IMG/VR virus record: IMGVR_UViG_3300044613_000766 | Span: 1 to 39,833 of that record | Length of the DNA stretch: 39,833 nt | DNA from: a virus | Strand: one strand, 5' to 3' | Shown here: piece after piece, positions 534-35,040 of the stretch | How the letters are laid out: each line of letters starts with the position of its first letter | Position numbering within the stretch: position 1 is the first letter of the stretch | The notes under the pieces: generated by a model | What the model was told of the DNA's origin: nothing | The model's database searches: none | Seen by the model: the letters and a program-made list of their open reading frames with translations, nothing else | Made by a program: the position numbers and the translations under genes

Positions 534-536
534 CAA

Positions 537-556
537 ATAGTTGGAGCTATGGATAT
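537..556 (+). promoter_or_regulatory. Degenerate copy of the 20-nt promoter-like repeat
   Basis: Just after the stop of the first gene lies ATAGTTGGAGCTATGGATAT. It matches the exact 20-mer found at 8719 and 15531 at 16 of 20 positions, including the ATAGTTGG and GCTA blocks. It is intergenic and points rightward. Whether it is active cannot be seen. Confidence 0.35.
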
Positions 557-1390: not shown

Positions 1391-1439
1391 CGCGGCAATG
1401 GAGTCTCCACCCTACGGGGTGGAACTCTCCCTTTCCGCG
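1391..1439 (+). promoter_or_regulatory. Structured intergenic hairpin, UNCG family copy 1
   Basis: The core stem CCACCC/GGGTGG is closed by a TACG tetraloop (C-UACG-G, a UNCG-type loop). It is flanked by GGAGT...ACTCTCC, and outside that CGCGG (1391-1395) pairs with CCGCG (1435-1439). Two further copies follow at 1808 and 2077 with changed but still paired stems. No T run follows, so RNA processing, stabilisation or translational control is more likely than simple termination. Confidence 0.7.
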
Positions 1440-1798: not shown

Positions 1799-1807
1799 CA
1801 AGATCTT

Positions 1808-1838
1808 GGAGTCTCCCTCCTACGGGAGGGAACTCTCC
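1808..1838 (+). promoter_or_regulatory. Structured intergenic hairpin, UNCG family copy 2
   Basis: Core stem CCCTCC/GGGAGG... reads as CCCTCC (1815-1820), loop TACG, GGAGGG (1825-1830). The flanks GGAGTCT...AACTCTCC are as in copy 1. Compared with copies 1 and 3 the stem bases differ on both arms while pairing is kept. The outer pairing is weaker here (ACAA with TTGT). It sits about 40 bases before the ribosome-binding site of the 1880 gene. Confidence 0.65.
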
Positions 1839-1879
1839 TCGACCGTTGTGGTTGAGATTCGCACCTAGGAGAACTTGCA

Positions 1880-2077: not shown

Positions 2078-2123
2078 CGGTAATGGAGTCTCTTTCCTAC
2101 GGGAAGGAACTCTCCTTTACCGT
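2077..2123 (+). promoter_or_regulatory. Structured intergenic hairpin, UNCG family copy 3
   Basis: Outer arms ACGGTAA (2077-2083) and TTACCGT (2117-2123) pair perfectly. The inner stem TCTTTCC/GGAAGGA has one T-G pair and is capped by TACG (2098-2101). The flanks GGAGTCT and ACTCTCC are retained. This is the longest of the three hairpins and begins inside the stop codon of the preceding gene. Confidence 0.7.
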
Positions 2124-2413: not shown

Positions 2414-2579
2414 CTAGGCGTATATGCGTATATGTATATGCGTATGCATACAAAGGGCTGATTATCCCAATAGATCGGGATGATGCCCACCCAACTACGC
2501 GCATATATGCATATGAATGGGCTAATTATCCCAATAGATCAACCGCCACACCCATAGAAATATGCGTGTGGTGATTTCC
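2414..2579 (+). repeat. Direct repeats in an alternating purine-pyrimidine tract
   Basis: No gene. A 22-base direct repeat, GGGCT(G/A) followed by ATTATCCCAATAGATC, occurs at 2455-2476 and 2519-2540. Before each copy lies alternating purine-pyrimidine DNA (TATATGCGTATATG at about 2420; GCGCATATATGCATATG at about 2500), with a shorter ATATGCGTGTG after the second. The first copy forms a long hairpin (GGGC...GCCC around ATTATCCC/GGGATGAT, 2455-2488); the second lacks the pairing half. Tandem phage promoters or a replication start are possible readings. Confidence 0.6.
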
Positions 2580-2655: not shown

Positions 2656-3354
2656 ATGAAGATTTCGCTCAAGCAGTTGGCTTCGGCCTGCACCGTTGCG
2701 TCCAAGGCTCATCCGGAGATTGCTCTGGGTAAGTCGCAGAACCTGCGGATCAACCCTTCGTTCGGCTCGACCACCGAGGAGTTGATCTCTGGCGCAATCG
2801 ACGGCAACACCATCGCACAGGCTGAACTCGCTCGTCGTGCAGCGAAGAAGAACATGACCATTGAGGCTTTCCTCAAGGGCAAGGCTTCTTCGCAGGCTCG
2901 TCGTGAGGCCAAGCAGCAGGAGAAGGCTACGCCTATCGCTGCTGCTCCGGCTCCGGTTCAGCAGGAGAATGTGGTGTCGCTTCAGTCGATGCAGTCCGAG
3001 TTGCAGAGGATGATGTCTCTCATCGCCAGCATGGCAGAGAAGAAGCAGGAAACCCCTGCTGCTGTGGCTCCTGCTGCTGCTGCTCCTGCTCCGGTGATTG
3101 ACAAGGTTCTCAAGACCAACTGCATCAAGGCCGCAATGGCTGCGATCAAGTCGGAGGATCGTGCGGCTCTCAAGGCCGAACTCATCAACCTCGGCGTGAT
3201 CGACGGCTCCAGCAAGATGCGGTTCAGCAAGATGGTTGACCTGTTCAACGAGAACTTTCAGGTGAAGGTGAGCAAGCACAACGCTCCCGCCTCCACCCCG
3301 AAGGTGATCGCTTCGGCCAACCTGTCGGTCGGTAACATTCAGTTCACGGACTGA
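2656..3354 (+). CDS. Ala/Lys-rich early protein with helical linkers
   Basis: I chose ATG 2656 (GAGG nine bases upstream) over ATG 2596, because the intervening DNA folds into hairpins. The product has 232 residues. Residues about 1-75 hold a motif-like run NLRINPSFGSTTEELISGAIDG, split here as NLRINPSFG and GAIDGNTIAQAELARRAAKK, resembling a small helical domain. Two Ala/Pro linkers (about 95-105 and 135-150) flank a predicted helix (LQSMQSELQRMMSLIASMAE). The C-terminal part is again Lys-rich and helical. This looks like a modular, possibly DNA-binding or RNAP-associated early protein, but no family was recognised. It lies directly upstream of RNAP1. Confidence 0.7.
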   Translation: MKISLKQLASACTVASKAHPEIALGKSQNLRINPSFGSTTEELISGAIDGNTIAQAELARRAAKKNMTIEAFLKGKASSQARREAKQQEKATPIAAAPAPVQQENVVSLQSMQSELQRMMSLIASMAEKKQETPAAVAPAAAAPAPVIDKVLKTNCIKAAMAAIKSEDRAALKAELINLGVIDGSSKMRFSKMVDLFNENFQVKVSKHNAPASTPKVIASANLSVGNIQFTD

Positions 3355-3372
3355 TACAAACCGTGACTACAC

Positions 3373-3455: not shown

Positions 3456-5474
3456 TTGATCCGATGCAAGATGGAGTCGATTGCTATGGGAGTGCTTCAC
3501 GATATTAGTGAGATCGTGCAAGCATTCTCGGAGGCAGTTGACGGCGTGTTGAACAAGGTTCAACGCCAACCCCAATGGCTGCAAGAAATCCAGCAGCACC
3601 AGACCGAAGCCTGCAAGGCTTTGATCGAAGGCATTGTGCGTAACTGCTCAATGAACGGTGTTGTTGAAGTTCATGCTCCAATCAACGCTATTGCGAGTGC
3701 TTTGAAGCGTGTCGGTATGGGCAATGATTCAAGGCATCGCGTAGTGATTGCTTGGAACCTGTTGCATATTGCACAGGCAGCGGGGTGGGTTGTCATCCAT
3801 CAAAGCAATACCTCAACCATCGTTCGCATCACGCAGTCGTTTGCGTATGCAATGTATGGTAAGTGGTTTGCTTTGGCGGGAACTGCTTGTCCTCCGATGT
3901 TGGACAAGCCTGTTCAGCACACCCTCAAGCGTCGTGGTGGTTACAAGACTCGTGCTTTCCGCAAGGGTATTGTTCGTGGTAAGTGGTCGCAAGTTTCTTC
4001 AACTGCGATTGCTGCCGCCAATGCCATGCAGAATACGCCGTGGGTTATCAACAAGCGTGTGCTTGCTGTCGCCAACACCGTGTTCGCTGACCGAATCGAC
4101 CCTGATGTGAATGGTCGTGAGCGTCAGTTGTGGAATCACAATGCGTTGCTTGATCTGTCCAATCAGATTGGCAATCGCAGGTTCTATAACCCCACCTACT
4201 TCGAGGGTTCAGGTCGCATCTTCTATTCGTGCGATCTGCTGTCTCCACAAGCAAACGACCTCACGCGAGGCTTGCTTCTGCTTGGTCGCAGGCAGAGGCT
4301 CAACAAGCATGGATGGTATTGGCTTGCGGTTCATGTCGCCAACTGCTTTAGCGGTGTCGGCAAGGCTCGCAAGTTGGATAAGTTGCCATTCAATGAGCGT
4401 GTTGCTTGGGTTCGTAAGAACTCCAATGTGCTGCTTGCTATTGCCAATGATCCGCATACGCATCGTGCGTTGTGGTGGAATGGCATCGGCAAGAAAGCAC
4501 AGACATTCCAAGCGTTGGCTGCGGCTATTGCTTGGGATGAAGCCTTGCGTACAGGCTATACGCAACAGCCTGTGATGCTCGATCAGACTTGCAGCAACTA
4601 CGGTCATGCAGCAGCAATGCTTCGTGATTCGCACCTCGCAAGCCTGACGAACATGGCTCCGTCGAAATCCTTTAGCGATTTCCACTCGTCAGTATTGACT
4701 AACTTCAAGCGAGTCGCAAGTGAAACTTACGACAGCGATGTGGTTGGTTCGCTGACAAGAAACGATGTCAAGTCACCAAGCATGGTGCTTGGCTACGGTG
4801 GAACCGTCAAGGGAATCGCAGGAACCATGATGGGTCGCAAGACTTGGGCAAAGGTAGATGACAAGTGGAAGCGTGTTGCCGAACCCGGTACGCTTCCCGC
4901 TCGTTTGTCCAACAACCCATCAGAGCACTACAAGATTGCGTTCAACATGGCAACGCTTGCACGGGAAGCAGTTGTTGAGACTGCTCCTGCTGCGTTTGCT
5001 GTGACAAATGCAATCCGTAAGTGCATCAAAGTTCACCGTGAACATGGCGGTGATCGCTTTGGTTGGGTCAGCCCAAGTGGTTTCCATGTCAGTCTCAAGT
5101 CCACAAAGAAAGTGGAGGACAAGATCGTTGCCGCACAGTTCCTTGGCGGCGCACAGGTGAAGTGGCATTTCTTCACCGACGAAATGAATTGGCGTAAGAT
5201 GAACACCGCCACTTCGCCTCGTTTCACTCACTCGTTTGACGCAGCAACTCTGCATATCTGCTTTGCCAACTGTGAGTTTGATGTGGTTGGTGTGCATGAT
5301 TGCATTGGCTGCTTGCCCAATCACATGACTAGGTTGTACCGATTCTTCCGTGAATCGCTCGTTGCGATTTACGAAAGCAATCCATTCAAGAACTTCTGCA
5401 ACAACTACGGTGTTGAGATTGAGCAGGGTGACTTGGATGTGTCAGGTGTGTCACGATCCTTCATGCTTTCCTGA
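3456..5474 (+). CDS. Single-subunit (T7-type) DNA-directed RNA polymerase, RNAP1
   Basis: It transcribes phage DNA from phage promoters. From the likely TTG start at 3456 (AAAGGAG, spacing 6) it is 672 residues, against 883 in T7, so most of the missing length is N-terminal. Palm and finger motifs are present. Motif A is LDQTCSNYGH with Asp376. Motif B is KSPSMVLGYGG with Lys439 and Tyr447, the same eight-residue spacing as T7 K631-Y639. Motif C is VHDCIGC with Asp615. The usual GIQH after motif A is NYGH, and the DxRGR motif reads EGSGR before a CDLLSPQ stretch shared with RNAP2. The frame stays open upstream to a GTG at 3363 without a site. Catalytically intact by motif, but clearly divergent and far more GC-rich than RNAP2. 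Confidence 0.93.
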   Translation: MIRCKMESIAMGVLHDISEIVQAFSEAVDGVLNKVQRQPQWLQEIQQHQTEACKALIEGIVRNCSMNGVVEVHAPINAIASALKRVGMGNDSRHRVVIAWNLLHIAQAAGWVVIHQSNTSTIVRITQSFAYAMYGKWFALAGTACPPMLDKPVQHTLKRRGGYKTRAFRKGIVRGKWSQVSSTAIAAANAMQNTPWVINKRVLAVANTVFADRIDPDVNGRERQLWNHNALLDLSNQIGNRRFYNPTYFEGSGRIFYSCDLLSPQANDLTRGLLLLGRRQRLNKHGWYWLAVHVANCFSGVGKARKLDKLPFNERVAWVRKNSNVLLAIANDPHTHRALWWNGIGKKAQTFQALAAAIAWDEALRTGYTQQPVMLDQTCSNYGHAAAMLRDSHLASLTNMAPSKSFSDFHSSVLTNFKRVASETYDSDVVGSLTRNDVKSPSMVLGYGGTVKGIAGTMMGRKTWAKVDDKWKRVAEPGTLPARLSNNPSEHYKIAFNMATLAREAVVETAPAAFAVTNAIRKCIKVHREHGGDRFGWVSPSGFHVSLKSTKKVEDKIVAAQFLGGAQVKWHFFTDEMNWRKMNTATSPRFTHSFDAATLHICFANCEFDVVGVHDCIGCLPNHMTRLYRFFRESLVAIYESNPFKNFCNNYGVEIEQGDLDVSGVSRSFMLS

Positions 5475-5484
5475 AAGGAAACAA

Positions 5485-5952
5485 ATGAACGAGTCACGAA
5501 GCCGCACATTCCAGATGTGCAAGGAGTTTGCTGATGAGATGAGGCTGGTGCTTCCATCTCTGATGAAGCGTGAGGATTTGGAAACCAAGTTCTCCAAGTT
5601 GTCTCTGCACCTTGCGTGTTGCTCACGCTTGGCACAGCAAACGGAAGAACTTGCGGCATCAATGAGCAAGAACATCGAACTTCACAAGAAGTTGGCCGAA
5701 GTCAAGAGTGATTTGATTGGGGCAAAGAATGACATCATTCAAGACCTCAATGATCAACTTACTTTCATCAAGTTGCAACTTGAAGACACAATCAAGAGGC
5801 TGAACGAGGATCGGTGGTATACGGAGCAAGCAAAGACTCTTGAGAAGATGGGTCACTTGCGAAATCCTGACAAGGCTTTGACTTGTGGGGATTGGGCTGA
5901 TGCTTGCAGCCTTGATGCCGCAATCGAATCCCTTCGAGGAGAACAGCGATGA
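5485..5952 (+). CDS. Coiled-coil early protein, unknown
   Basis: Starts at ATG 5485 behind GAAAGGAAACAA, ten bases after the RNAP1 stop, so it is probably co-transcribed with it. The 155-residue protein is mostly helical. Residues about 25-110 carry heptad-like Leu/Ile spacing (KLAEVKSDLIGAKNDI, LNDQLTFIKLQLED), a convincing coiled coil. It ends with a short globular part containing NPDKALTCGDWADACSLDAA. No enzyme motif. Its stop overlaps the next start (ATGA). Confidence 0.7.
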   Translation: MNESRSRTFQMCKEFADEMRLVLPSLMKREDLETKFSKLSLHLACCSRLAQQTEELAASMSKNIELHKKLAEVKSDLIGAKNDIIQDLNDQLTFIKLQLEDTIKRLNEDRWYTEQAKTLEKMGHLRNPDKALTCGDWADACSLDAAIESLRGEQR

Positions 5953-6170
5953 ATGATTTGAACTGGCTAACTTATGTATGCAAGAACAGTCTTCCAATGA
6001 CTGAAGAAGAGAGACAGAATGCATACTACGCTCTTACGGCTAACCCAAACAAAGAACTGAATGAACTTCGTGATCGTGTTTCCTTGTTGGAAGCACAACT
6101 TCGGGGTTATCGTGATGAACTTCGCGATAAGAATGTTGAGATCAGGGTTCTTCGCAGCCTTCTCAAGTAA
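5949..6170 (+). CDS. Small coiled-coil protein, unknown
   Basis: A 73-residue protein translationally coupled to the preceding gene through a four-base ATGA overlap; GAGG upstream supports this start. The N-terminal third is a short helical domain (LTYVCKNSLPMTEEERQ). The rest is a coiled coil (ELNELRDRVSLLEAQLRG, DELRDKNVEIRVLRSLL). Being coupled to another coiled-coil protein suggests that the two may pair, which is inference. Confidence 0.65.
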   Translation: MNDLNWLTYVCKNSLPMTEEERQNAYYALTANPNKELNELRDRVSLLEAQLRGYRDELRDKNVEIRVLRSLLK

Positions 6171-6179
6171 GGAAATCAA

Positions 6180-6545
6180 ATGTTCAATCTGCACACACAA
6201 TCACATTGTAATGGATTCACCATGACATTTGAGAATGGATACACAGTATCCGTTGCATGGGGATGGGGAAACTATTGCGATAACAAGAACAAGCGTCCTG
6301 TTACTTATGGAGCAAGCAACTGTTTGCCCCCTCTTTCTAGCACCGAGTTCTATGAGTGCAAGACTGCGGAGGTTGCTGTCTGGAATCGGGATGGTACATT
6401 CCTAACACCCGATGGCAAACTTGGTGGTGATGTTCTTTCATATAGAACACCCGAAGAAGTTGCGTCGTTTCTTTCTGAAGTTGCGTCTTGGAAATCAAAC
6501 AAGGAGTTCAACAATGAACCAACAAATCAAGGCACGATGGGTTGA
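6180..6545 (+). CDS. Small Trp/Gly-containing protein, unknown
   Basis: A 121-residue protein with AAGGAAATCAA before ATG 6180. Residues 15-60 look like a beta-rich domain (MTFENGYTVSVAWGWGNYC...), followed by a helix starting TPEEVASFLSEVASW. Phage proteins with the TFENG...VSVQWG pattern are common and uncharacterised; I give no function. Its last 32 bases overlap the start of the next gene in another frame. Confidence 0.7.
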   Translation: MFNLHTQSHCNGFTMTFENGYTVSVAWGWGNYCDNKNKRPVTYGASNCLPPLSSTEFYECKTAEVAVWNRDGTFLTPDGKLGGDVLSYRTPEEVASFLSEVASWKSNKEFNNEPTNQGTMG

Positions 6546-6999
6546 GGCTTTGCGTTCGGGTAAGTACGGACAAACAACGAGTCACCTTTCTGATAAGGAA
6601 GGGTTCTGTTGTTTAGGTGTTCTTTGTGATTTGTATATTCAAGATCACCCAACCACAAGTGAATGGAGGCAGTACGAAGAGGACTCTCCATTCAATGTCT
6701 TTGCTTGTAACATCAACACAGACAACAGACAGTCCAATCACGAAGTTCTTCCTTATGAAGTCGCAAAGTGGGCAGGCTTTGACAAGGAAGAAACTTACCC
6801 AACAGCAATCAAGGTGACTACGGGAGATACGATCAACTGTGATGTTGTTGTTCGTAGTGCTGATCTTTGTGACGATCTTCCTATTGTTTCCGGTCGTAGT
6901 GAACTGCAAGACAAGAAACAAGTCAGTCTTGCAGAACTCAATGACGAATATCACTTTTCGTTTGTTGCTCTTGCAGACATCATCGAAAAGCAACTCTGA
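6514..6999 (+). CDS. ALRSGKY/FCCLGVLCDLY family protein, copy 1
   Basis: Starts at ATG 6514 (AAGGAG, spacing 7) and overlaps the previous gene by 32 bases. The 161-residue protein opens with W-V-E-ALRSGKYGQ, then FCCLGVLCDLY, then LPYEVAKWAG, and ends with SLAELNDE...FVALADIIEKQL. The same order of blocks is seen in the 11380 gene. This is a widespread small phage family without a known function; the conserved Cys pair could bind metal or form a disulfide. Copy 1 lies in the RNAP1 block and copy 2 sits beside RNAP2. Confidence 0.75.
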   Translation: MNQQIKARWVEALRSGKYGQTTSHLSDKEGFCCLGVLCDLYIQDHPTTSEWRQYEEDSPFNVFACNINTDNRQSNHEVLPYEVAKWAGFDKEETYPTAIKVTTGDTINCDVVVRSADLCDDLPIVSGRSELQDKKQVSLAELNDEYHFSFVALADIIEKQL

Positions 7000-7120
7000 T
7001 CCTTCGGAGGGCGGTACTCTCCCGCGTTCTCATGGTAGAAATATCATGGGAATGTTTAGGCATTTCGCGTGGTAGCCTATTGAATGACCACATATGTTGT
7101 ATAGCAACTACACCTATACA

Positions 7121-7212
7121 AAGGAGACACATGTAGAGTTCTAGGTATACACGCTGTCTATAACCTAGGTAGGCAAGTGGTTCGCCACGGGATTCTCTTT
7201 CGAGAGAATCCC
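7121..7212 (+). promoter_or_regulatory. Start-stop mini-ORF followed by tandem hairpins
   Basis: AAAGGAG (7121-7127) is followed four bases later by ATG TAG, a complete initiation site for a one-codon frame. After it come a CTAGGT...ACCTAG imperfect stem (about 7140-7169), a GTGG-TTCG-CCAC hairpin (7177-7188), and directly next to that a perfect 10-bp stem GGGATTCTCT/AGAGAATCCC with TTCG loop (7189-7212). The rest of 7000-7254 holds no gene; 7001-7025 (GGAG...CTCTCC, CGCG) may be a decayed fourth copy of the UNCG hairpin family. Confidence 0.5.
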
Positions 7213-7254
7213 CTACGATACACTTGTTCTGTTCTTTTCTAAAGGAGATTGACA

Positions 7255-7467
7255 ATGGAAACTAGTGCACCTAATATGGACAGGGATTGGTGGGTTGTCT
7301 ATCGTACTCTTGACAATCCCAAGTGGAGAGTTCTTTCATACCACGATACAAAGTATGATGCTAATCGTGCTGCTATGAATAACTTTCATGGACTTTCAGG
7401 TTGTGATGTTGTGTCGTGTCATCGTGATGATCTTTCCTTTTACCTTGGAGACAATGCAAATGCCTAA
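7255..7467 (+). CDS. Small hypothetical protein
   Basis: A 70-residue protein from ATG 7255, seven bases after AAAGGAG. WWVVYRTLDNPKWRVLSYHDTKYDANRAAMN reads as two beta strands followed by a helix, a pattern common in small phage proteins. No known family. It overlaps the following MPNWCNN gene by eight bases, indicating coupled translation. Confidence 0.65.
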   Translation: METSAPNMDRDWWVVYRTLDNPKWRVLSYHDTKYDANRAAMNNFHGLSGCDVVSCHRDDLSFYLGDNANA

Positions 7468-7987
7468 CTGGTGTAACAATACTGTTCTTCTTACTCACGC
7501 TGATCCTGCAAAGATTCAGGCACTCAAGGATGCTCTTTCAAAGGATATCTTCTTCGATCATATCCTTCCACTTGGTGAGTGGGATTATGACAAAGCAATC
7601 AAGACTTGGGGAACCAAGTGGGAAGCATCTAATCTTTCTTGGATGCAGTTTGATAACAAGAATCAGATTGAGATTTCTTTTGAGTCTGCTTGGGGTCCGC
7701 CCGAAGAAATTTATAACGCAATGGTTGCAGATGGTTGGACAGTAGAGGCTTATTTCTTTGAGCCGGGAATGGGATTTGTTGGTAAGTATGGTACTGATCC
7801 TGATGGTCTTTATGAGGACTATTATGAGATGGATGATCCTATTCCTGCTAAGTTGGTTGATATGTTTTGTATTCAAGATATGTATGAGGATTCTGATTAC
7901 GAACTCGTTGATAATGGTGACGGACATTACATTGTAAAGGAAAGGATTAGTGATGACAACGACACGACTCAAGTTGAAGCCGAATAA
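7460..7987 (+). CDS. MPNWCNN-type phage/plasmid protein (Api92/YubB-like)
   Basis: Starts at ATG 7460, which gives the hallmark N-terminus MPNWCNNTVLL. A second in-frame ATG at 7454 is six bases earlier, and GGAG at 7446-7449 could serve either. The 175-residue protein has a ferredoxin-like beginning (strand, then PAKIQALKDAL helix, then DHILPL), a central FESAWGPPEEIYNAMVADGW segment typical of this family, and a very acidic C-terminus. Family members occur in many phages and plasmids and have no settled function. Confidence 0.75.
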   Translation: MPNWCNNTVLLTHADPAKIQALKDALSKDIFFDHILPLGEWDYDKAIKTWGTKWEASNLSWMQFDNKNQIEISFESAWGPPEEIYNAMVADGWTVEAYFFEPGMGFVGKYGTDPDGLYEDYYEMDDPIPAKLVDMFCIQDMYEDSDYELVDNGDGHYIVKERISDDNDTTQVEAE

Positions 7988-8165
7988 GATTCTAAATGGA
8001 AAGCATTATCGTTGGGGTGATTTGTATGATTCGTGGAATCAATCACAGAAAGATCACTTTGATGGTATCATTGATGTCTATGCTCCGCTTATGCGTGATA
8101 ACATTCAATACCCTAGTATTGCAGATCAATGGAAGGCTGATGCTGCACGGAGATTTACCAAGTGA
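7953..8165 (+). CDS. Small hypothetical protein
   Basis: A 70-residue protein that overlaps the end of the previous gene by 35 bases in another frame. AAAGGATTAG lies just upstream of ATG 7953. It is basic at the N-terminus (TTTRLKLKPNKI) with aromatic WGDLYDSWNQSQKDHFDGII in the middle. Family unknown. The stop is embedded in the next start (GTGA). Confidence 0.55.
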   Translation: MTTTRLKLKPNKILNGKHYRWGDLYDSWNQSQKDHFDGIIDVYAPLMRDNIQYPSIADQWKADAARRFTK

Positions 8166-8314
8166 AACCTAGTGAAGTTCTTGATCGTATCTTTAATGTT
8201 GTTGACAATCTAGATGATGAGTGTGGTAATATTGAGGATATCAGAGAACTTCTTTTGGATTGTAGTTATCTGATCAATCATTTCTTTTCTATTTATGGAG
8301 ACTCAAGGATTTAG
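8162..8314 (+). CDS. Tiny acidic hypothetical protein (GTG start)
   Basis: A 50-residue frame begins with GTG overlapping the previous TGA. It is acidic, helical (PSEVLDRIFNVVDNLDDE, IEDIRELLLDC) and uses the same codon style as its neighbours. Its end abuts the next ATG. Coding status rests on tight packing and composition only; no family recognised. Confidence 0.5.
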   Translation: MKPSEVLDRIFNVVDNLDDECGNIEDIRELLLDCSYLINHFFSIYGDSRI

Positions 8315-8316
8315 TT

Positions 8317-8496
8317 ATGAATGATATTGAAAAGGTTGGACATAATCTTCTTGATTATCTTGTATCCCTTGATTTTATTGAGATTTCTTGGGATGCAAAT
8401 GGTAAGGATTATTATAAACTTACTGAATTTGGTATTATGGTTGAAAATATGTTAAAGGTTTTTACGGAAAATAATAACAACAATACTGGATATTAA
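8317..8496 (+). CDS. Tiny protein with winged-helix-like pattern
   Basis: A 59-residue frame from ATG 8317, with an AAGGA upstream. The pattern IEKVGHNLLDYLVSLDFIEI, then KDYYKLTEFG, then a final helix resembles the recognition-helix and wing part of winged-helix regulators (the Y-x-LTEFG ending is common there). It may be a small transcription regulator, but it is short and the call is tentative. It ends in an Asn-rich tail. Confidence 0.5.
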   Translation: MNDIEKVGHNLLDYLVSLDFIEISWDANGKDYYKLTEFGIMVENMLKVFTENNNNNTGY

Positions 8497-8498
8497 GT

Positions 8499-8657
8499 AT
8501 GTTGAATGTATATACGGTACATTATCGACCAGACCAATGTTGTTATGAGGTTATTAGAAATATGAGTGTTGTTGTTGATGCTTTTGATGACGAAAACGAT
8601 GCTCATTCATATGCTTGTTATCTAACTAAAGAGGAAGAGAAATGGCTGGAGCAGTAA
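8499..8657 (+). CDS. Tiny hypothetical protein
   Basis: A 52-residue frame from ATG 8499, two bases after the previous stop. It reads as strand-loop-strand-helix (MLNVYTVHYRPD, CYEVIRNMSVVVDAFDD, then AHSYACYLTKEEEKWL). A clear ribosome-binding site is lacking, so translation may depend on coupling. It overlaps the next tiny gene by 16 bases. Confidence 0.45.
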   Translation: MLNVYTVHYRPDQCCYEVIRNMSVVVDAFDDENDAHSYACYLTKEEEKWLEQ

Positions 8658-8722
8658 TAACTTTTGGATTATTCGTGGCTATTGTTCTTTACATGAAGTA
8701 TCAATATCCACTTGATGAATAG
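8642..8722 (+). CDS. 26-residue single-span membrane peptide
   Basis: GAGGAAGAGAA precedes ATG 8642. The peptide is MAGAVITFGLFVAIVLYM followed by KYQYPLDE, that is, one hydrophobic span and a short polar tail. Its stop codon is part of the promoter-like 20-mer at 8719. Tiny phage membrane peptides include holin-like and host-modulating proteins; none can be assigned here. Confidence 0.55.
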   Translation: MAGAVITFGLFVAIVLYMKYQYPLDE

Positions 8723-8738
8723 TTGGGGCTACTGATAG
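8719..8738 (+). promoter_or_regulatory. Candidate phage promoter, exact 20-nt repeat copy 1
   Basis: ATAGTTGGGGCTACTGATAG is identical base for base to 15531-15550. It is mostly intergenic (its first four bases overlap the stop of the preceding tiny gene) and precedes tRNA-Lys. Twenty identical intergenic bases 6.8 kb apart suit the promoter of one of the two phage RNA polymerases. A processing signal is an alternative. Confidence 0.55.
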
Positions 8739-8755
8739 AGCCTCCAAAATTACTC

Positions 8756-8828
8756 GCCTTCGTAACTCAACTGGTAGAGTAGCCGACTTTTAATCGGTAG
8801 GTTACAGGTTCAAGTCCTGTCGAGGGCA
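8756..8828 (+). tRNA. tRNA-Lys(UUU)
   Basis: Acceptor arms GCCTTCG and CGAGGGC pair with one T-G. The D-arm reads AACTCAACTGGTAGAGT. The anticodon stem is GCCGA/TCGGT around loop CTTTTAA, giving anticodon TTT. The T-arm is ACAGGTTCAAGTCCTGT. Discriminator A, no CCA. It reads AAA, the favoured Lys codon of the AT-rich late genes. Confidence 0.95.
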
Positions 8829-8849
8829 TTCCATTTACAAGGAGATAAC

Positions 8850-9242
8850 ATGGACAAAGATACTGAATATGAAGAAATCAATATTGATATTGATGGTGTT
8901 GAGTATACAGTTGATTTTGTTATTCGTGAGTATTGGGATTGGGTAGATCATGGTATTGGTCCTTACGATTATCATGGTGCTTTTGGTGTCCACGAAGACT
9001 GGCAATGGGAACTAAAGGAACTTGAAATCTTTGACATCTTTATCCATGAATACAATGATGGACAACTTATTACAAAGTCTGATCTTAATGATTGGGATAA
9101 AGACTTTGCAAACAAAATAAAAAAAGCGTGTCTTAAGATTGGTTGGGATGATGCTGAAGAACCTGAACAAAGTGGTAGTTATTATTATAATACTAAAGAT
9201 TATTATGATGAAGATGACTACAGAAATACTTATCTAGATTAA
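8850..9242 (+). CDS. Very acidic hypothetical protein
   Basis: A 130-residue protein with AAGGAG seven bases before ATG 8850. It is strongly acidic throughout (Asp and Glu with Tyr/Trp), opening with a beta-like INIDIDGVEYTVDFVIREYW and ending in a Tyr/Asp-rich tail (YYYNTKDYYDEDDYRNTY). Phage proteins of this charge can mimic DNA, as T7 Ocr does, but no sequence similarity to any DNA mimic is visible, so that remains only a possibility. It lies between tRNA-Lys and tRNA-Ile. Confidence 0.75.
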   Translation: MDKDTEYEEINIDIDGVEYTVDFVIREYWDWVDHGIGPYDYHGAFGVHEDWQWELKELEIFDIFIHEYNDGQLITKSDLNDWDKDFANKIKKACLKIGWDDAEEPEQSGSYYYNTKDYYDEDDYRNTYLD

Positions 9243-9251
9243 ATAAATTAT

Positions 9252-9324
9252 TGGGGTGTGCCTGAATTGGAAAAAGGTCGTGACTTATAATCGCGCTCAT
9301 GTGGGTTCGATCCCCGCCGCCCCT
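9252..9324 (+). tRNA. tRNA-Ile(UAU)
   Basis: Acceptor arms TGGGGTG and CGCCCCT leave a T-T mismatch at the first pair; the other six pairs hold. The D-stem is short (CCT/AGG). The anticodon stem is CGTGA/TCGCG around CTTATAA, giving anticodon TAT, which reads AUA. The T-arm GTGGG TTCGATC CCCGC is regular. The terminal mismatch makes the exact ends uncertain by a base. Confidence 0.85.
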
Positions 9325-9328
9325 ATTT

Positions 9329-9345
9329 TGTCCTTATAGGAAGGA
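9329..9345 (+). promoter_or_regulatory. Small hairpin between tRNA-Ile and the next gene
   Basis: GTCCTT (9329-9334) pairs with AAGGAC (9340-9345) around an ATAGG loop. It lies four bases after tRNA-Ile and 38 bases before the next start. It could help release the tRNA 3' end or protect the downstream message. Confidence 0.4.
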
Positions 9346-9382
9346 CAGTTTCTCACTAAACTATACTTTAAAAGGATAGAAT

Positions 9383-9763
9383 ATGAATCACTTTGCAGAA
9401 AAGATGGAAGAGTTTCTTAAGGAAGCCGCTAGCGATGCTGTTAAGGATCAGGTTAGCGATGCTATTGACGATATTCGTAGTGACTTTGAATCAGAGGTTG
9501 AAGATGCAAAGTATAGCATGGAGCAGACTATTGATTCTGCTATCTCCGATATGCGTAGTGATATTATTTCAGATGTAATGTCTGATATTGATTCAACTAT
9601 TGATGATCGTATTGAAAAGCATAAGGCAATCAATGCTCCTCTTAATTCCGATGATATGCGGTGGATCAAGGATTGCATTGATGCTATCGTTAAGGAGCGT
9701 ATTTCTATGATCCTTGATGAACTTGCAAAGTTTGCAAGACCAACTTATATTCCCAATAAGTAA
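9383..9763 (+). CDS. Amphipathic coiled-coil protein with Asp/Ser/Ile repeats
   Basis: A 126-residue protein (AAAAGGATAGAAT before ATG 9383). Residues about 15-80 are a run of heptad-like units built of Asp, Ser and Ile/Met (VSDAIDDIRSDFESEVEDA, AISDMRSDIISDVMSDID), predicting a long acidic coiled coil. A short C-terminal domain ends in a Pro/Lys tail. No catalytic motif. It probably forms a homo-oligomeric rod; its role is unknown. Confidence 0.75.
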   Translation: MNHFAEKMEEFLKEAASDAVKDQVSDAIDDIRSDFESEVEDAKYSMEQTIDSAISDMRSDIISDVMSDIDSTIDDRIEKHKAINAPLNSDDMRWIKDCIDAIVKERISMILDELAKFARPTYIPNK

Positions 9764-9771
9764 TAGCATTA

Positions 9772-9845
9772 GTTCCTGTAGCTCAATTGGATAGAGCGTG
9801 GCACTTCTAATGCTAAGGTTAATGGTTCAATTCCATTCAGGAACG
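9772..9845 (+). tRNA. tRNA-Arg(UCU)
   Basis: Acceptor arms GTTCCTG and CAGGAAC are perfectly paired. The D-arm is TAGCTCAATTGGATAGAGC. The anticodon stem TGGCA/TGCTA (one G-T) closes loop CTTCTAA, giving anticodon TCT, which reads AGA. The T-arm is AATGGTTCAATTCCATT. The 3' acceptor strand contains AGGAAC, placed to act as ribosome-binding site for the small gene at 9850. Confidence 0.95.
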
Positions 9846-9849
9846 CTTT

Positions 9850-10026
9850 ATGAAATACGGATTGTGGTGTAAAAACTCAAAAGATTGGATGATGGAATCT
9901 CGTACTGAAGTTGCTCTTTGGGAATTAGAAAAAGAAGCAGACAAGTGGAGAAGAAATCATACAGTTCATCCTGATAACTATGAAACTAAAGCCTATGTAG
10001 ACCAACGGCAGAGTCAACGGATTTAA
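9850..10026 (+). CDS. Small basic/aromatic protein overlapping tRNA-Leu
   Basis: A 58-residue frame starts five bases after tRNA-Arg; the only Shine-Dalgarno-like bases (AGGAAC, 9839-9844) belong to that tRNA. The protein MKYGLWCKNSKDWMMESRTE... is rich in Trp, Lys and Glu with a helix TEVALWELEKEADKWRRN, a pattern seen in many small phage proteins. Its last eleven codons and stop lie inside the tRNA-Leu gene on the same strand. The N-terminal two thirds look genuinely coding; the overlap could be tolerated or fortuitous. Confidence 0.55.
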   Translation: MKYGLWCKNSKDWMMESRTEVALWELEKEADKWRRNHTVHPDNYETKAYVDQRQSQRI

Positions 10027-10063
10027 AATCCGTAAAGTGTGGGTTCGAATCCCACCATAGGCA
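9991..10063 (+). tRNA. tRNA-Leu(UAA) with a short variable loop
   Basis: Acceptor arms GCCTATG and CATAGGC pair perfectly. The anticodon stem ACGGA/TCCGT closes loop TTTAAAA, giving anticodon TAA, which reads UUA. The T-arm is GTGGGTTCGAATCCCAC. The variable region is only AAAGT, whereas bacterial Leu tRNAs normally carry a long variable arm, so it is a reduced form. Discriminator A, as LeuRS prefers. It overlaps the end of a small reading frame. Confidence 0.9.
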
Positions 10064-10066
10064 CAT

Positions 10067-10139
10067 GGGGCTATCGTCTAGTGGTCTAGGATAGGAGGCT
10101 TTCATCCTCTTGACCGGAGTTCGAATCTCCGTAGCCTCA
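10067..10139 (+). tRNA. tRNA-Glu(UUC)
   Basis: Acceptor arms GGGGCTA and TAGCCTC pair with one G-T. The D-arm is CGTCTAGTGGTCTAGG. The anticodon stem GGAGG/CCTCT closes loop CTTTCAT, giving anticodon TTC. The T-arm is CGGAGTTCGAATCTCCG. It lies three bases after tRNA-Leu, so both are probably cut from one transcript. Confidence 0.95.
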
Positions 10140-10155
10140 CTACTTTGGAGGTACT

Positions 10156-10290
10156 ATGAAAAACAACAAGCACAAAGATAAGGATAGATATAAATACAAA
10201 AAGAAAGAAAAGAATAAGGGGTGGGGAGATAGAAAGCGTAAGGAACAGAGAGATCAGTTCCGTATTCGGGATCGTTCTGATTTAGATTAA
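10156..10290 (+). CDS. 44-residue highly basic peptide
   Basis: GGAGG precedes ATG 10156 by seven bases, a strong site. The peptide alternates Lys/Arg with Asp/Glu (KHKDKDRYKYKKKEKNK, then DRKRKEQRDQFRIRDRSD) with no hydrophobic core, so it is probably disordered and nucleic-acid associated. Codon use matches its neighbours. Function unknown. Confidence 0.6.
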   Translation: MKNNKHKDKDRYKYKKKEKNKGWGDRKRKEQRDQFRIRDRSDLD

Positions 10291-10304
10291 GCGTCAGTTG
10301 ACGC
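10291..10304 (+). promoter_or_regulatory. Palindromic hairpin in the DUF932 gene leader
   Basis: GCGTCAGTTGACGC is a near-perfect palindrome (stem GCGTC/GACGC, loop AGTT). It is followed directly by AGAAAGG and the ATG at 10318, echoing the hairpin plus AAAGGAGG arrangement at 15544-15560. It may be a processing site, mRNA stabiliser or operator. Confidence 0.4.
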
Positions 10305-10317
10305 AGAAAGGTACTGT

Positions 10318-11325
10318 ATGGCTCACGAAATTATGTCAAAGGATAGGGCTGTGTTTAATCGCGTTGCTGCATGGCATCGCCTTGGTACTGTGGTTGAGTC
10401 TGATATGAATCCATCAGATGCTCTTAAGGCTGCTGGTCTTGATTGGAATGTTATCAAGACTGGTTTTGTTAAGGCTGACCACCCTGATGTTGGTACTGTT
10501 TTCTCTGAAGACTATAGTGCAATCGTTCGTCAGGACACTCAGGAAATTCTTAGTGTTCAGTCTAGCGATTATCAGGTCATTCAGAATAGCGAACACTTTG
10601 AAATGGCTTATGAACTTAGCCGTGATGTTAAGGTTGAGTCTGCACTTAGTTTGAAGAATGGTCGTAAGGTTGTTCTTCTTCTTCGTGGTGATTCGTTTGA
10701 TGTTCGTGGTTCTAGCGGTGATACTGTTACCGAATACATGGGTCTAATCAATAGCCATGATGGTAGCATTGCTTTCTCTGCTCTGCCAACAAGTGTTCGT
10801 ATTGTTTGTCAGAACACTTTGAGCATGGCTATTGCTCAAGCAAAGAGAGGTAAGAATATGTTCCGTATTACCCATAAGGGTAGTACTATGGAAGACAAGA
10901 AGGAAGCAATGCGTGATGCACTTCGTCAGTTCCGTAATAGCGGACAGTTCTTCCGTGATGCTGTGAATGATCTTGCTAATTATGAACTTGATAAGGCTGG
11001 TATCCAGAAGTTCTGGATGGATGTTTGGGGTCTTATCGAAACTCCTATTGTTACTAACCCAAGGACTGAAGCCGAACAGGATAACTATAACAACGCTGTA
11101 AAGGCTGTGTCTAATTGGTCTGAAACCTTTGACCGTGAAAGGGATGAGACTGGTAGTACTGCAAATATGTGGATGGCTGCTAACGCTGTTAGCAAGTTCA
11201 TTCAGCATCGTGTTGCAAAGAAGGGCCGTAAGGCTTCAATGGAGAATCGTGCATGGGATAATCTTGCTGGTCTGAATCAGGATTCAACCATGAAGGTGTT
11301 CCGTCACGCTCTCGCTCTAGTCTAA
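10318..11325 (+). CDS. DUF932 family phage/plasmid protein
   Basis: A 335-residue protein with AGAAAGG upstream of ATG 10318. It has the marks of the DUF932 (phage/plasmid-like TIGR03299) family: an N-terminal MAHEI...AWHRLGTVV, then an alpha/beta body with DYQVIQNSEHFEMAYEL and GRKVVLLLRGDSF, and near the middle TSVRIVCQNTLSMA, followed by helices. Length is usual for the family. Its function is not established, although genes of this family often sit with phage or plasmid DNA metabolism. It uses noticeably more GC-ending codons than RNAP2 but fewer than RNAP1. Confidence 0.85.
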   Translation: MAHEIMSKDRAVFNRVAAWHRLGTVVESDMNPSDALKAAGLDWNVIKTGFVKADHPDVGTVFSEDYSAIVRQDTQEILSVQSSDYQVIQNSEHFEMAYELSRDVKVESALSLKNGRKVVLLLRGDSFDVRGSSGDTVTEYMGLINSHDGSIAFSALPTSVRIVCQNTLSMAIAQAKRGKNMFRITHKGSTMEDKKEAMRDALRQFRNSGQFFRDAVNDLANYELDKAGIQKFWMDVWGLIETPIVTNPRTEAEQDNYNNAVKAVSNWSETFDRERDETGSTANMWMAANAVSKFIQHRVAKKGRKASMENRAWDNLAGLNQDSTMKVFRHALALV

Positions 11326-11379
11326 TCATTAAGTTGAGGTGGGATGCGCATACCTATCACGCATTGCATAGGAGATACA

Positions 11380-11790
11380 ATGAAGAAAGATATTGCAAAG
11401 CTTTGGACAAAGGCTCTTCGATCTGGTAAGTATAAGCAAGGTAAATATACTCTTCGTAACCATGATAATAGTTTCTGTTGTCTTGGTGTTCTTTGTGACC
11501 TTTATAATAATGAACAAAAGAAAAAGAAGAAGAAGACTTTGAATGTTGTTAAGATTAATGATAAGGTAGAGGGTAAGTGCTATAAGTATGGTCCTGCTAC
11601 TTCTTATCTTCCGGTTGTTGTAAAGAAGTGGGCTGGTATGAAAACAACTAAAGGTGAATTTTGTGGTAATAAAAACTGTATCTTCGGTTGGTATAGTTTG
11701 GCTGGGATAAATGATGGGGATTACAGTAATTTTAAAAATTCATTTAAGCACATTGCTAAAATTATTAATGATAATGTAGATCAACTTTGA
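11380..11790 (+). CDS. ALRSGKY/FCCLGVLCDLY family protein, copy 2
   Basis: Starts at ATG 11380 (TAGGAG, spacing 8); an in-frame upstream start at 11344 lacks a site. The 136-residue protein shares W-x-x-ALRSGKYxQ, FCCLGVLCDLY, LPxxVxKWAG and a final SLAGIND...FKHIAKII block with the 6514 gene. A Lys-rich insertion (KKKKKK, about residue 47) follows the CDLY block, and extra Cys residues (CGNKNC) appear in the second half. It is directly upstream of RNAP2. Function unknown. Confidence 0.75.
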   Translation: MKKDIAKLWTKALRSGKYKQGKYTLRNHDNSFCCLGVLCDLYNNEQKKKKKKTLNVVKINDKVEGKCYKYGPATSYLPVVVKKWAGMKTTKGEFCGNKNCIFGWYSLAGINDGDYSNFKNSFKHIAKIINDNVDQL

Positions 11791-11802
11791 TAGGAGGTAC
11801 TT

Positions 11803-14298
11803 ATGCCTGAGTTATGGAATTTACTAAAGCCAGAAGTTCAGGAGAGTAGAAAAACCTATCAAGCTCTTATTGAAGAGGAGATGCTTAATCTTTCCAACAA
11901 TAGATATTGGGAAGAGTATAATCGTGCTCCTGATGAGGGTTATCCTGAACAGGGATTACTTGATTCTTGTGTAGTTCACTTAACTCCGTTCTATCAAGAA
12001 TGGATTGATTTGATTAGCAAGAATCGTAAGACTCCTGAATGGGCTTATCCTTTGTTTGCTGTTGGTGCTGGCAAGATGGCTGATATTACTATTCGTTGTC
12101 TCATGTTAGAGTGGTTTAACTCTGCAATGTGGGATCGTAAGATGGATGGTAAAGACGGTGACTTACATACAGTTCCACTACCATCCGCACAGCATATGGC
12201 CCACCAAATTTCTAACATGGTAATTGATATTGTTTCTTATCAAGCTGCTAAAGAAAACTTTAAGCAAGATTGGTTAAAGCAATCTCATTATCAAAAGAAC
12301 TGGACTGTTAAGAGATGCAAAGCATTTTCTCTTAAGATGAACTGTATTAATAAAAAGCAGTTTACTAGAAAGCAAAGAGAAGATTTTGGACATCATATGT
12401 TACGCATTGCTGAAATGAGTAACATTGTTTCTATTAAGAACTATCGTAAGCGTATTAATAATCGTTGGTATGAACGAGTTGTTGTAAGTTTTACTGATGA
12501 TATCTTAATGGAACTTAACAATAAACACAACGATCTTGTTTCTAGGGCTAGTCTTTTGTATAGACCTATGATTGTCCCTCCTGTTCCACACGCTGTGGAT
12601 TCTAGTGGTGGCAATCTAATGCCTTGGATTCGTAAGCCTGTTGTTCAAAAGTTTAAAGATGTTTATTGGGATGAAACAGTAACACAAAAGAATTCTACTC
12701 CTAGTGAAATGGTTGTTCGTGGTCTTAATAATTTAATGAACACGGAATGGACTATTAACTATAAAGTTTATGAAGTAATGAATGCTTTATTTCATAACAA
12801 TACAAGAGAAGCAAATCTTCCAGCTTATAACTTTGATGCCTTTGACTTTGGAGAGTCTTACCCAGAACAGGGTACTAAAGAAGAGAAAGCAAAGTGGTGT
12901 CAAAGAAAAGAAGAGTCTTGGTCTTCTTGGTATAAAGAAGAAAGATCAAGAGGAAGAATGCTTGTTAGATTAAAGCTTGCTAAAGATCTAATGAAGTGGG
13001 GTTTCTTTTATCACATTTATACTTGCGACTTTAGAGGTCGTGCTTATACTGCTTGTGATCTTTTATCACCACAAAGTTCAGACTTTGATCGCAGTTTAAT
13101 TATGTTTGCCAAGCCAGTTAAGCAAACCGAACAGGGTTTGTATTGGTTAAAGATTCATCTTGCAAATCTTTTCGATCAAGATAAAGAACCATTTGATGTT
13201 AGAATTAAATGGGTTGAAGATAATCTTAAGAACATTCAAGATACTGCTAAACATCCATTTGAAATGAGATGGTTCTGGATTAGCGATAAAAAGAAAAAGA
13301 ATCCTAGTTTCCAAAGACTAGCAGCAATCTTTGAACTTTGTAGAACAGATGGTCTTACTCAGTTACCAATTCAAATGGATGGTTCTTGTAATGGAGTTCA
13401 ACATTGGGCTGCTATTATGAAAGATGTTGATCTTGCTTACAAAGTAAATCTACAACACTCAAAAGACCCTCAAGATCTTTATGGGTTTGTTGCAGATTCT
13501 ATGACCAATTCTATGAAAGAAGATGTTAAGAGTGATTCTACTGATCCTGATACAAGAGGATGGGCAGAGTTGTTTCTTAATCATTGGGATAATAAAATCC
13601 CAAGATCTGTTTGTAAGAGAGCTGTAATGACTGATCCATATGGAGTTACTTTCTATGGTATTCGTCGTTACTGTAAATCTGAAGGACATCTTGACTGGGT
13701 TGGTAAGGATAGGATTGCTGGTGCTGTAATGGAACTTGCTACTTATATTGATAAGTGTCTTAAGAATACCTTGACTAACGCTAATAAAGGTAAGGTATGG
13801 TTAAAGCAAGTTGCAGATATAGCAAGTAATATGGGAAAGAATCTTGAATGGACTACACCATGTGGGTTTAAAGTTGTTCATCAATACTATCAAATCTTAA
13901 CTAGAAGATCTATTGCTAAACTTTTTAATATGAAAGAGCTTAACTTTGGTTCTGTTGATTCTAGTCAGATTGATGATGACCAAGTAAACTTGGCTGTTAG
14001 TCCTAATTATATTCATAGTCTTGATGCTGCTCATATGTGGTTGACTATGAATAGAATGATTAATTCTGGTATTACTAACTTTAGTTTTGTACATGACTCT
14101 TATGGGTGTGCTGCTCCTTATGTTTCAATGATGAGACAGTACACTAAAGAAGAGTTCTATGAGATGCACAAAGAACCGCTGCTTAATAAATTAAAAGAAG
14201 AGTTACAATTACTCCTTGGAGTAGAACTACCAACACTTCCTGAATGCGGAAACTTTGAGTTATCTTCTGTACTTGAAGCAGATTATTTCTTTCATTAG
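11803..14298 (+). CDS. Single-subunit (T7-type) DNA-directed RNA polymerase, RNAP2
   Basis: An 831-residue enzyme close to T7 RNAP length (883), with AGGAGG before ATG 11803. Landmarks in order: DFRGRAYTACDLLSPQ (DxRGR motif), motif A MDGSCNGVQHWAA with Asp526, motif B KRAVMTDPYG with Lys605 and Tyr613, motif C FVHDSYGC with Asp765, and a C-terminus ending in aromatic DYFFH, recalling the FA-F foot of T7 RNAP. The N-terminal part aligns in overall plan with a promoter-recognition domain. It should transcribe middle and late genes. It is AT-rich like the late genes, unlike RNAP1, and sits upstream of the replication genes as in cyanophage-type autographiviruses. Confidence 0.97.
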   Translation: MPELWNLLKPEVQESRKTYQALIEEEMLNLSNNRYWEEYNRAPDEGYPEQGLLDSCVVHLTPFYQEWIDLISKNRKTPEWAYPLFAVGAGKMADITIRCLMLEWFNSAMWDRKMDGKDGDLHTVPLPSAQHMAHQISNMVIDIVSYQAAKENFKQDWLKQSHYQKNWTVKRCKAFSLKMNCINKKQFTRKQREDFGHHMLRIAEMSNIVSIKNYRKRINNRWYERVVVSFTDDILMELNNKHNDLVSRASLLYRPMIVPPVPHAVDSSGGNLMPWIRKPVVQKFKDVYWDETVTQKNSTPSEMVVRGLNNLMNTEWTINYKVYEVMNALFHNNTREANLPAYNFDAFDFGESYPEQGTKEEKAKWCQRKEESWSSWYKEERSRGRMLVRLKLAKDLMKWGFFYHIYTCDFRGRAYTACDLLSPQSSDFDRSLIMFAKPVKQTEQGLYWLKIHLANLFDQDKEPFDVRIKWVEDNLKNIQDTAKHPFEMRWFWISDKKKKNPSFQRLAAIFELCRTDGLTQLPIQMDGSCNGVQHWAAIMKDVDLAYKVNLQHSKDPQDLYGFVADSMTNSMKEDVKSDSTDPDTRGWAELFLNHWDNKIPRSVCKRAVMTDPYGVTFYGIRRYCKSEGHLDWVGKDRIAGAVMELATYIDKCLKNTLTNANKGKVWLKQVADIASNMGKNLEWTTPCGFKVVHQYYQILTRRSIAKLFNMKELNFGSVDSSQIDDDQVNLAVSPNYIHSLDAAHMWLTMNRMINSGITNFSFVHDSYGCAAPYVSMMRQYTKEEFYEMHKEPLLNKLKEELQLLLGVELPTLPECGNFELSSVLEADYFFH

Positions 14299-15213: not shown

Positions 15214-15531
15214 ATGGAACAAAGAAAATTTAGTGTGTTAACTGAAGAAATGTTTAAGTTTGTCACTCCAAAGTTTACTATTAGAATGTGGCTTCCATTA
15301 AGTCAACCCTTTAGTGAAAATGATTTATATCCTACAAACCAAACTAATGATATAGTTAGTTGTGATAATAACTGGATGCGTTCTAATATTGAAATCCTTA
15401 TTGAAAGTAAATGGAAGGATCTTGGAATGGCTGAACTTGGAATGCGTTTATTGTCAGCTTATGAAGCCAATGCTGTTGAAGTTCTTGATGAGAATGGAAA
15501 TGGTAAGGTTTTCTATAACGATTGGCCCTGA
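15214..15531 (+). CDS. Hypothetical protein
   Basis: A 105-residue protein with GAGG before ATG 15214. It starts with a basic amphipathic segment (EEMFKFVTPKFTIRMWLPL) and continues with an acidic helix-rich part. No family recognised. Its last base is the first base of the promoter-like 20-mer, so transcripts starting there begin a new unit with the next gene. Confidence 0.65.
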   Translation: MEQRKFSVLTEEMFKFVTPKFTIRMWLPLSQPFSENDLYPTNQTNDIVSCDNNWMRSNIEILIESKWKDLGMAELGMRLLSAYEANAVEVLDENGNGKVFYNDWP

Positions 15532-15560
15532 TAGTTGGGGCTACTGATAGGTGCTATCAG
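15531..15560 (+). promoter_or_regulatory. Candidate phage promoter copy 2 with hairpin
   Basis: ATAGTTGGGGCTACTGATAG (15531-15550) is identical to the 8719 copy. Here its end forms a 7-bp hairpin, CTGATAG (15544-15550) with CTATCAG (15554-15560), immediately before AAAGGAGG. If transcription starts in the 20-mer, the mRNA would carry a 5' hairpin right next to the ribosome-binding site. It precedes the SSB/RusA/ThyX operon. Confidence 0.55.
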
Positions 15561-34917: not shown

Positions 34918-35009
34918 GTTTATTTACAAGATCCCCCTTACTAGGCAATGGATGTGTATTTAAACAAAGTAACACAAGAATGACTCCTATAGGAAAAATC
35001 TAAATTGTG

Positions 35010-35040
35010 TAAGTCGTTACTTATCGTTATTTTTTTTTAT
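35010..35040 (+). terminator. Weak terminator-like hairpin before the capsid gene
   Basis: TAAGT (35010-35014) pairs with ACTTA (35019-35023) around CGTT, followed by TCGTTA and eight T residues. It lies 31 bases before the capsid ATG. The stem is short, so it may only reduce readthrough. The 154-base gap around it (34918-35071) has no gene and also contains TCCTATAGGA, a perfect palindrome at about 34985. Confidence 0.45.

Follow-up and report, generated by a model that had tools for sequence, protein, structure and literature searches.

To our knowledge, phages with a T7-type polymerase usually carry one such enzyme, and N4, which has a virion enzyme and a heterodimer, is the known exception. 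A count in GenBank agrees with a similar statement made in the initial annotation of the DNA studied here: 2592 matching places were found in the 2578 phage records with a match (the 14 extra places were only counted). In N4, the early enzyme is a virion RNA polymerase (RNAP) of approximately 3500 aa and the second enzyme is a heterodimer of gp15 and gp16 (PMC4496689, PMC12633501). The RNAPs of phiKZ and AR9 are multisubunit enzymes (PMC4666361, PMC5312081), unlike the single-subunit RNAPs (ssRNAPs) described below. No description of two free-standing ssRNAPs in one phage was found in the open-access literature, and no isolate with this arrangement was found in the collections searched.

The window and its phage family

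The window (the whole stretch of DNA analysed here, an IMG/VR record of 39,833 bases) covers approximately 60% of an uncultivated phage genome of ~66 kb. Its left end lies inside a giant gene and its right end inside a tail gene. Relatives with overlapping ends are contigs of 66-68 kb (G018, 123-bp overlap; G043, 55 bp; G021, ~1.5 kb and imperfect). In addition to two polymerases, RNAP1 and RNAP2, the window encodes a T7-type primase-helicase, PolA, an exonuclease, and portal, scaffold, capsid and tail genes. The nearest isolates show ~40% identity to the primase-helicase, 33% to the portal and 28% to RNAP2. The initial description of a T7-like genome is loose for a genome of ~66 kb whose RNAPs fall outside the sampled Autographiviridae RNAP clade.

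Relatives of RNAP2 (~50-97% identity) were found in 15 contigs by a single-protein search and in at least 80 IMG/VR contigs by an alignment search. A broad search with a Syn5-based alignment returned 80 generic ssRNAP contigs, which were kept outside the analysis. No close isolate was found for the family defined by RNAP2, and a search for RNAP2 relatives among bacterial genome contigs found no host. These phages, with genomes of ~66-68 kb, constitute a family that is not yet described; RNAP2 is its common enzyme and RNAP1 is present in some members.

Six tRNA genes (Asn, Lys, Ile-tat, Arg-tct, Leu-taa and Glu) are located between positions 736 and 10140, and the tRNA-Asn gene, which is conserved among relatives, marks the left border of the early region. 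Two small paralogous proteins (phrog_18067) are encoded at 6412-6999, where the early region ends, and at 11344-11790, just 5' of RNAP2. At 20047-22142, a gene for a PurZ-like adenylosuccinate synthetase (phrog_1211, PF00709) adjoins a gene of the IMP dehydrogenase/GMP reductase type (PF00478). The phage DNA may contain 2-aminoadenine.

The giant virion-type gene is represented in the window by its C-terminal tail (3..533, + strand; last 176 aa). Each of the five full-length relatives has a giant ORF (3543-5140 aa), in the sense orientation, directly 5' of the early region. The giant ORF of G046 (5140 aa; L225:4309-19729) weakly matches the virion RNA polymerase phrog_2206 (1.3e-7) and phrog_414 (1.3e-4). 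It contains the sequences FDGNFNGIHH (motif A-like), RKLFKKPVMVYLYG (motif B-like) and, further on, PRVVHAHD; motif C was looked for and is not recognisable. This ORF is possibly a decayed or rearranged N4-type virion polymerase. G046 is the sole match to the phrog_2206 profile, with no match in six of the seven records tested, and the giants of G021, G043, G018 and G010 have none of its polymerase-like features.

The two polymerases

RNAP1 (3456..5474, + strand; 672 aa) starts at a TTG codon at 3456 with a good Shine-Dalgarno sequence (AAAGGAGATTCAC) in front and stops at 5474; its length would be 703 aa if the upstream GTG at 3363 serves as the start. RNAP2 (11803..14298, + strand; 831 aa) starts at an ATG codon at 11803 and stops at 14298. 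Both ORFs are open and complete and score far above the curated cut-off of 22 bits for PF00940 (RNAP1: 135.5 bits, E-value: 3e-39; RNAP2: 297.3 bits, E-value: 3e-88), in agreement with the initial annotation of two complete ssRNAPs. RNAP1 also matches phrog_414 (1.9e-94). By sequence, RNAP2 gives a slightly better score with human mitochondrial RNA polymerase (2e-53) than with T7 RNAP (6e-50).

In an alignment with T7 RNAP, residues D537, R627, K631, Y639, G640, H784 and H811-D812 (T7 numbering) are kept in both enzymes. These include the catalytic Asp pair (D537 and H811-D812) and the O-helix Lys and Tyr (K631 and Y639), as had been read from the sequence at the outset. The CDLLSPQ block reported as common to both enzymes and the unusual RNAP1 motifs were likewise found: RNAP1 has EGSGR for DxRGR and, in motif A, NYGH in place of GxQH. 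At the DxxGR motif, RNAP2 has DFRGR; in the EGSGR of RNAP1, R425 is kept, D421 is replaced by E and R423 by S, and the relative L071 has DVSGR. The N terminus of RNAP1 is shorter than that of T7 RNAP. An AlphaFold2 model of RNAP1 (18-row alignment; mean pLDDT 87, pTM 0.86) matches T7 RNAP structures along its entire length and superimposes on the T7 RNAP-promoter complex 1cez with a Z-score of 34.4 over 637 residues (rmsd 3.7 A, chain 30-883). The model thus gives RNAP1 the fold of T7 RNAP, with the N-terminal promoter-binding domain also present.

When whole records were searched with the PF00940 and RNAP1 profiles, a second ssRNAP was found in at least 17 records of the RNAP2 family. In the ten genomes measured, it precedes RNAP2 by 4.2-6.5 kb and has the same orientation. 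The carriers can be divided into group A (the window, G021, G043, G052, G065, G066, G067 and the record of L239) and group B (G008, G044, G046, G049, G053, G055 and G064); G050, G056 and G063 have divergent second ssRNAPs, and the match in G062 is weak. Because L118, L238 and L239 are near-identical and L106, L111 and L119 are close, the independent lineages are fewer than the records. A single-sequence peptide search of viral contigs returned no RNAP1 relatives, and an alignment-based search then found them. Among isolates, no RNAP1 relative above ~27% identity was found. In the window's subclade, RNAP1 is present only in the window and G021, and 22 related records, including the complete G018, have RNAP2 alone. 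In L002, L004 and L010, both flanks of the RNAP1 site are present with 2-3 kb between them instead of 6 kb, and the absence of RNAP1 from these loci is therefore real.

In a maximum-likelihood tree, RNAP1 and RNAP2 form separate clades, with group A at 100/99 and group B and the RNAP2 family each at 100/100. In this tree, which is unrooted and has long branches, the sampled Autographiviridae RNAPs are united in a 99/99 clade to which neither RNAP1 nor RNAP2 belongs. Groups A and B are on the same side of a 92/84 branch, and a single origin of the early enzyme in the two groups is suggested. The separate clades led to the rejection of RNAP1 as a recent duplicate of RNAP2. An ancient duplication linking the two enzymes is possible, since a grouping of group A with the RNAP2 clade was not rejected by the AU test (p 0.28).

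The window and L071 share 41% identity in RNAP1 and 69% in RNAP2; for the window and L102, these values are 32% and 52%. By these comparisons, RNAP1 is the faster-evolving enzyme. Orthologue pairs of group-B RNAP1 have a dN/dS of 0.16-0.18, and so the gene is maintained by selection. The GC contrast pointed out in the initial annotation (RNAP1 51%, RNAP2 35%) extends to the family: RNAP1 is GC-richer than RNAP2 in all ten two-polymerase genomes compared, and the early region of L002, which is without RNAP1, is likewise GC-rich. Because the contrast is general and the early region is GC-rich even without RNAP1, recent import of the gene was rejected; its high GC content is a trait of the early region and no sign of such an event.

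Two classes of conserved elements

Gene X (2656..3354, + strand) is located directly 5' of RNAP1 and encodes an Ala-rich protein of 232 aa. It has no Pfam match; L071 has a relative at the corresponding position (28% identity, E-value: 1e-12). Gene X and RNAP1 probably form one operon. Two elements designated class 1, which are candidate RNAP1 promoters, are found in tandem just 5' of these genes, at 2455..2476 (GGGCTGATTATCCCAATAGATC) and 2519..2540 (GGGCTAATTATCCCAATAGATC), both on the + strand. An alternating purine-pyrimidine run (GCGTATATGCGTATATGTATATGCGTATGCATAC, 2417..2452, no strand assigned) lies 5' of the first copy, and similar runs precede the class-1 elements of L071, L102, L118 and L241. 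Each of the five independent group-A genomes covering this region has the tandem pair just 5' of gene X-RNAP1 (window 2455/2519, L071 707/775, L102 384/438, L118 2239/2297 and L241 8925/8983). The elements are 16-30 bp long and 54-68 bp apart and follow the alternating runs. L241 was retrieved by RNAP1 alone and has the pair as predicted from the other four genomes, in which the pattern had been seen beforehand.

The class-1 elements align nearly without internal gaps. Their core is approximately TTCTRCCAAWGGGA in L118, L125 and L241, whereas L102, the window and L071 have more divergent versions. The likeness between the window and L071 elements is at chance level (59/300 shuffles), and shared ancestry of the core is therefore clear only among L102, L118, L125 and L241. 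The window has only the two copies, even at 4-6 mismatches. Further copies are found in G043 (42453, after RNAP1; 50769, within the RNAP2 gene; 51664, after RNAP2), L118 (6013, after RNAP1) and L125 (851, a few bases after the RNAP1 stop; 8479, after RNAP2). The L125 element at the RNAP1 stop continues into GGGAGA, which is the T7 start sequence, and several class-1 elements resemble ssRNAP start sites in that they run on into GGGAGA or GGGGA. Every one of the 16 copies has the sense orientation, and Markov controls gave 0-0.13 chance hits per strand. No class-1 copies were found in the late region of the complete G043, and group B yielded no clear class-1 family. Within the window's subclade, class 1 is confined to the two genomes that have RNAP1; many of the other loci stop short of that region. 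This pattern suggests that class-1 elements function as RNAP1 promoters.

Class-2 elements have a 23-bp consensus, CCNAATAGTTGGGGCTACTGATA, with 23 conserved bp. Three sites are present in the window, all on the + strand. The first (533..555), a candidate RNAP2 promoter, immediately follows the stop of the giant gene and has 3 mismatches to the 20-nt core; the second (8715..8737) has the exact core, AATAGTTGGGGCTACTGATA; the third (15527..15549), 1.2 kb after RNAP2, has 1 mismatch. The AATAG core starts at 536, 8718 and 15530. There are ~3-5 copies per genome in the window's subclade, in most contigs at approximately -8 to -11 kb, -3 to -5 kb and +1.1 to +1.6 kb relative to RNAP2, with more copies at +6 to +9.7 kb in some. 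In 49 loci of this subclade, 89 sense and 0 antisense hits were found at up to 4 mismatches. Of these, 83 lie outside ORFs of at least 150 aa (61% of random positions fall inside such ORFs), and 64% lie at a gene end, compared with 19% of random positions. A related family, AATARTTGGGTAAWGGAG, is present at four sites in L121, a more distant relative; one of these sites is directly 5' of RNAP2. This pattern would fit a promoter function. Because class 2 accompanies RNAP2 both in genomes that have RNAP1 and in those that lack it, it is likely to be read by RNAP2.

No element of either class was found immediately 5' of the structural genes. T7-style late promoters, in the form of a large family of near-identical 20-mers, were sought in five genomes and not found. 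A once-per-genome element at 34960-35015, 5' of the capsid gene, consists of GACTCC, a loop and GGAANAATC inside a stem. It is conserved in six genomes (capsids with ~45-60% identity), and the stem sequence varies between genomes. It looks like an RNA structure in the 5'-UTR; its single-sequence folding is not clearly above that of shuffles. With one copy per genome, this element was set aside as a promoter.

Three hairpins with a TACG loop lie on the + strand between small early genes of the window, at 1399..1438 (GGAGTCTCC..CCTACGGG..GGAACTCTCC), 1807..1846 and 2084..2123, with paired stem changes among the copies. Two similar hairpins are present in G021 (~37600 and ~39600), and none were found in RNAP1-less relatives. 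An interpretation as N4-like hairpin promoters was not adopted, because the paired stem changes and the stable UNCG-type loop fit an RNA element equally well; only the window and G021 have them. A 61-bp non-coding block with two hairpins (6997..7057, + strand), located where the early region ends and the middle region begins, is 97-100% identical in L001, L002 and L014, with flanks of mostly 75-92% identity, and is possibly a terminator or processing site. In the early region, predicted sigma-70 promoters and terminators were not clearly more frequent than in shuffled sequences.

Transcription model and comparison with described phages

The analysis shows two intact polymerases under constraint, a conserved synteny and two element classes with separate distributions. 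Purifying selection, this synteny and the strand specificity of both classes support the view that RNAP1 and RNAP2 are two working polymerases with separate roles. The initial annotation had proposed a division of labour between early/middle and late promoters. Separate roles are upheld by selection, synteny and the two element classes, but the elements do not show a plain division into early/middle and late. Those linked to RNAP1 are confined to the two flanks of RNAP1 and the surroundings of RNAP2 (early/middle), but those linked to RNAP2 are found where the early region begins and also among middle and replication genes.

We infer from these patterns which enzyme reads which class and in what order. 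The explanation that we consider probable is a cascade of two orthogonal ssRNAPs, RNAP1 acting on class 1 and RNAP2 on class 2. The host polymerase would first transcribe the GC-rich early region, presumably yielding a little RNAP1. RNAP1 would read its own class-1 tandem pair, amplify the gene X-RNAP1 operon and transcribe rightward through early/middle genes toward RNAP2. RNAP2 would then read the class-2 promoters for expression of early, middle and replication genes, and the structural genes would probably be reached by read-through. RNAP1 would be an accessory, fast-evolving early stage; most close relatives would have lost, or never had, RNAP1 and its element while retaining RNAP2 and class 2. 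Such a cascade would explain why RNAP1 and class 1 are present or absent jointly and why RNAP2 and class 2 stay. RNAP1 of the window might serve little beyond its own operon, because the only two class-1 copies are both 5' of gene X-RNAP1.

As an alternative, RNAP2 alone might transcribe the phage and read both classes, with RNAP1 as a passenger that is redundant or decaying. Two unrelated promoters are read by the RNAP of KP34 (PMC6834552), 22 related records (the complete G018 among them) are without RNAP1, and the EGSGR and NYGH motifs of RNAP1 are unusual. However, these odd motifs are partly common to L071 and so look inherited rather than the result of random decay; RNAP1 keeps its catalytic residues and has a dN/dS of 0.16-0.18 in group B; and class 1 is missing from all RNAP1-less subclade loci despite RNAP2 proteins that are up to 97% identical. 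This alternative is judged quite improbable. It is also unlikely that the class-1 pair is an operator or a replication/partition site (bound, for example, by the gene X product), with the RNAP1 promoters elsewhere. The class-1 elements are always sense and not consistently palindromic, several continue into GGGAGA or GGGGA, and G043, L118 and L125 have further copies at a distance from gene X, located after RNAP1 and beside RNAP2, although the pair always adjoins gene X, is accompanied by alternating palindromic runs and has no further copies in the window.

A recent horizontal transfer of a GC-rich block, or a chimeric contig, might be suspected from the GC step (~0.52 to 0.36) and from the lack of this block in close relatives. 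Family sequence is nevertheless present on both flanks (657-851 and 6997 onward), which disfavours a chimeric contig, and the same gene order recurs in many independent contigs. RNAP1 exceeds RNAP2 in GC content in ten of ten genomes, and the early region is GC-rich also without RNAP1. Recent transfer or chimerism is consequently considered very improbable, and a cascade of two orthogonal polymerases is the preferred reading. On balance, the phages described here may represent a family with two complete, free-standing, orthogonal ssRNAPs, separate promoter classes and a three-step cascade (host RNAP, self-amplifying RNAP1 and RNAP2), in which some members may also have an RNAP-like domain in the giant virion protein. 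If true, two free-standing polymerases with two promoter sets would be a new architecture for a transcription cascade. The family would allow the study of polymerase/promoter co-divergence, RNAP1 evolving faster than RNAP2 and being gained or lost between close relatives, and would be a natural source of orthogonal polymerase-promoter pairs for in vitro transcription and synthetic biology.

Among described phages, N4 and the Schitoviridae resemble this family in having two T7-family polymerases in one phage, which here would also be used in succession, and a giant virion-type protein. RNAP1 (672 aa) is similar in length to N4 RNAPII (673 aa in two subunits). In contrast to N4, RNAP1 and RNAP2 are each encoded by one continuous ORF among non-structural genes, there is no split RNAPII, and the phrog_2206 profile of the virion RNAP is without a match in six of seven records. 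T7 and other Autographiviridae (Syn5, LUZ100 and the Roseobacter CRP phages) share with this family the polymerase fold and residues, the T7-type replication and head genes and strand-specific promoter-like elements of 23 bp. They differ in having one ssRNAP and genomes of ~40 kb, compared with two ssRNAPs and 66-68 kb here. The jumbo phages phiKZ and AR9 also have two phage-encoded RNAPs for different gene sets, as is proposed for this family. KP34 also has two unrelated promoter classes in one phage, but a single enzyme reads both (PMC6834552), whereas in the family described here each class tracks a different enzyme.
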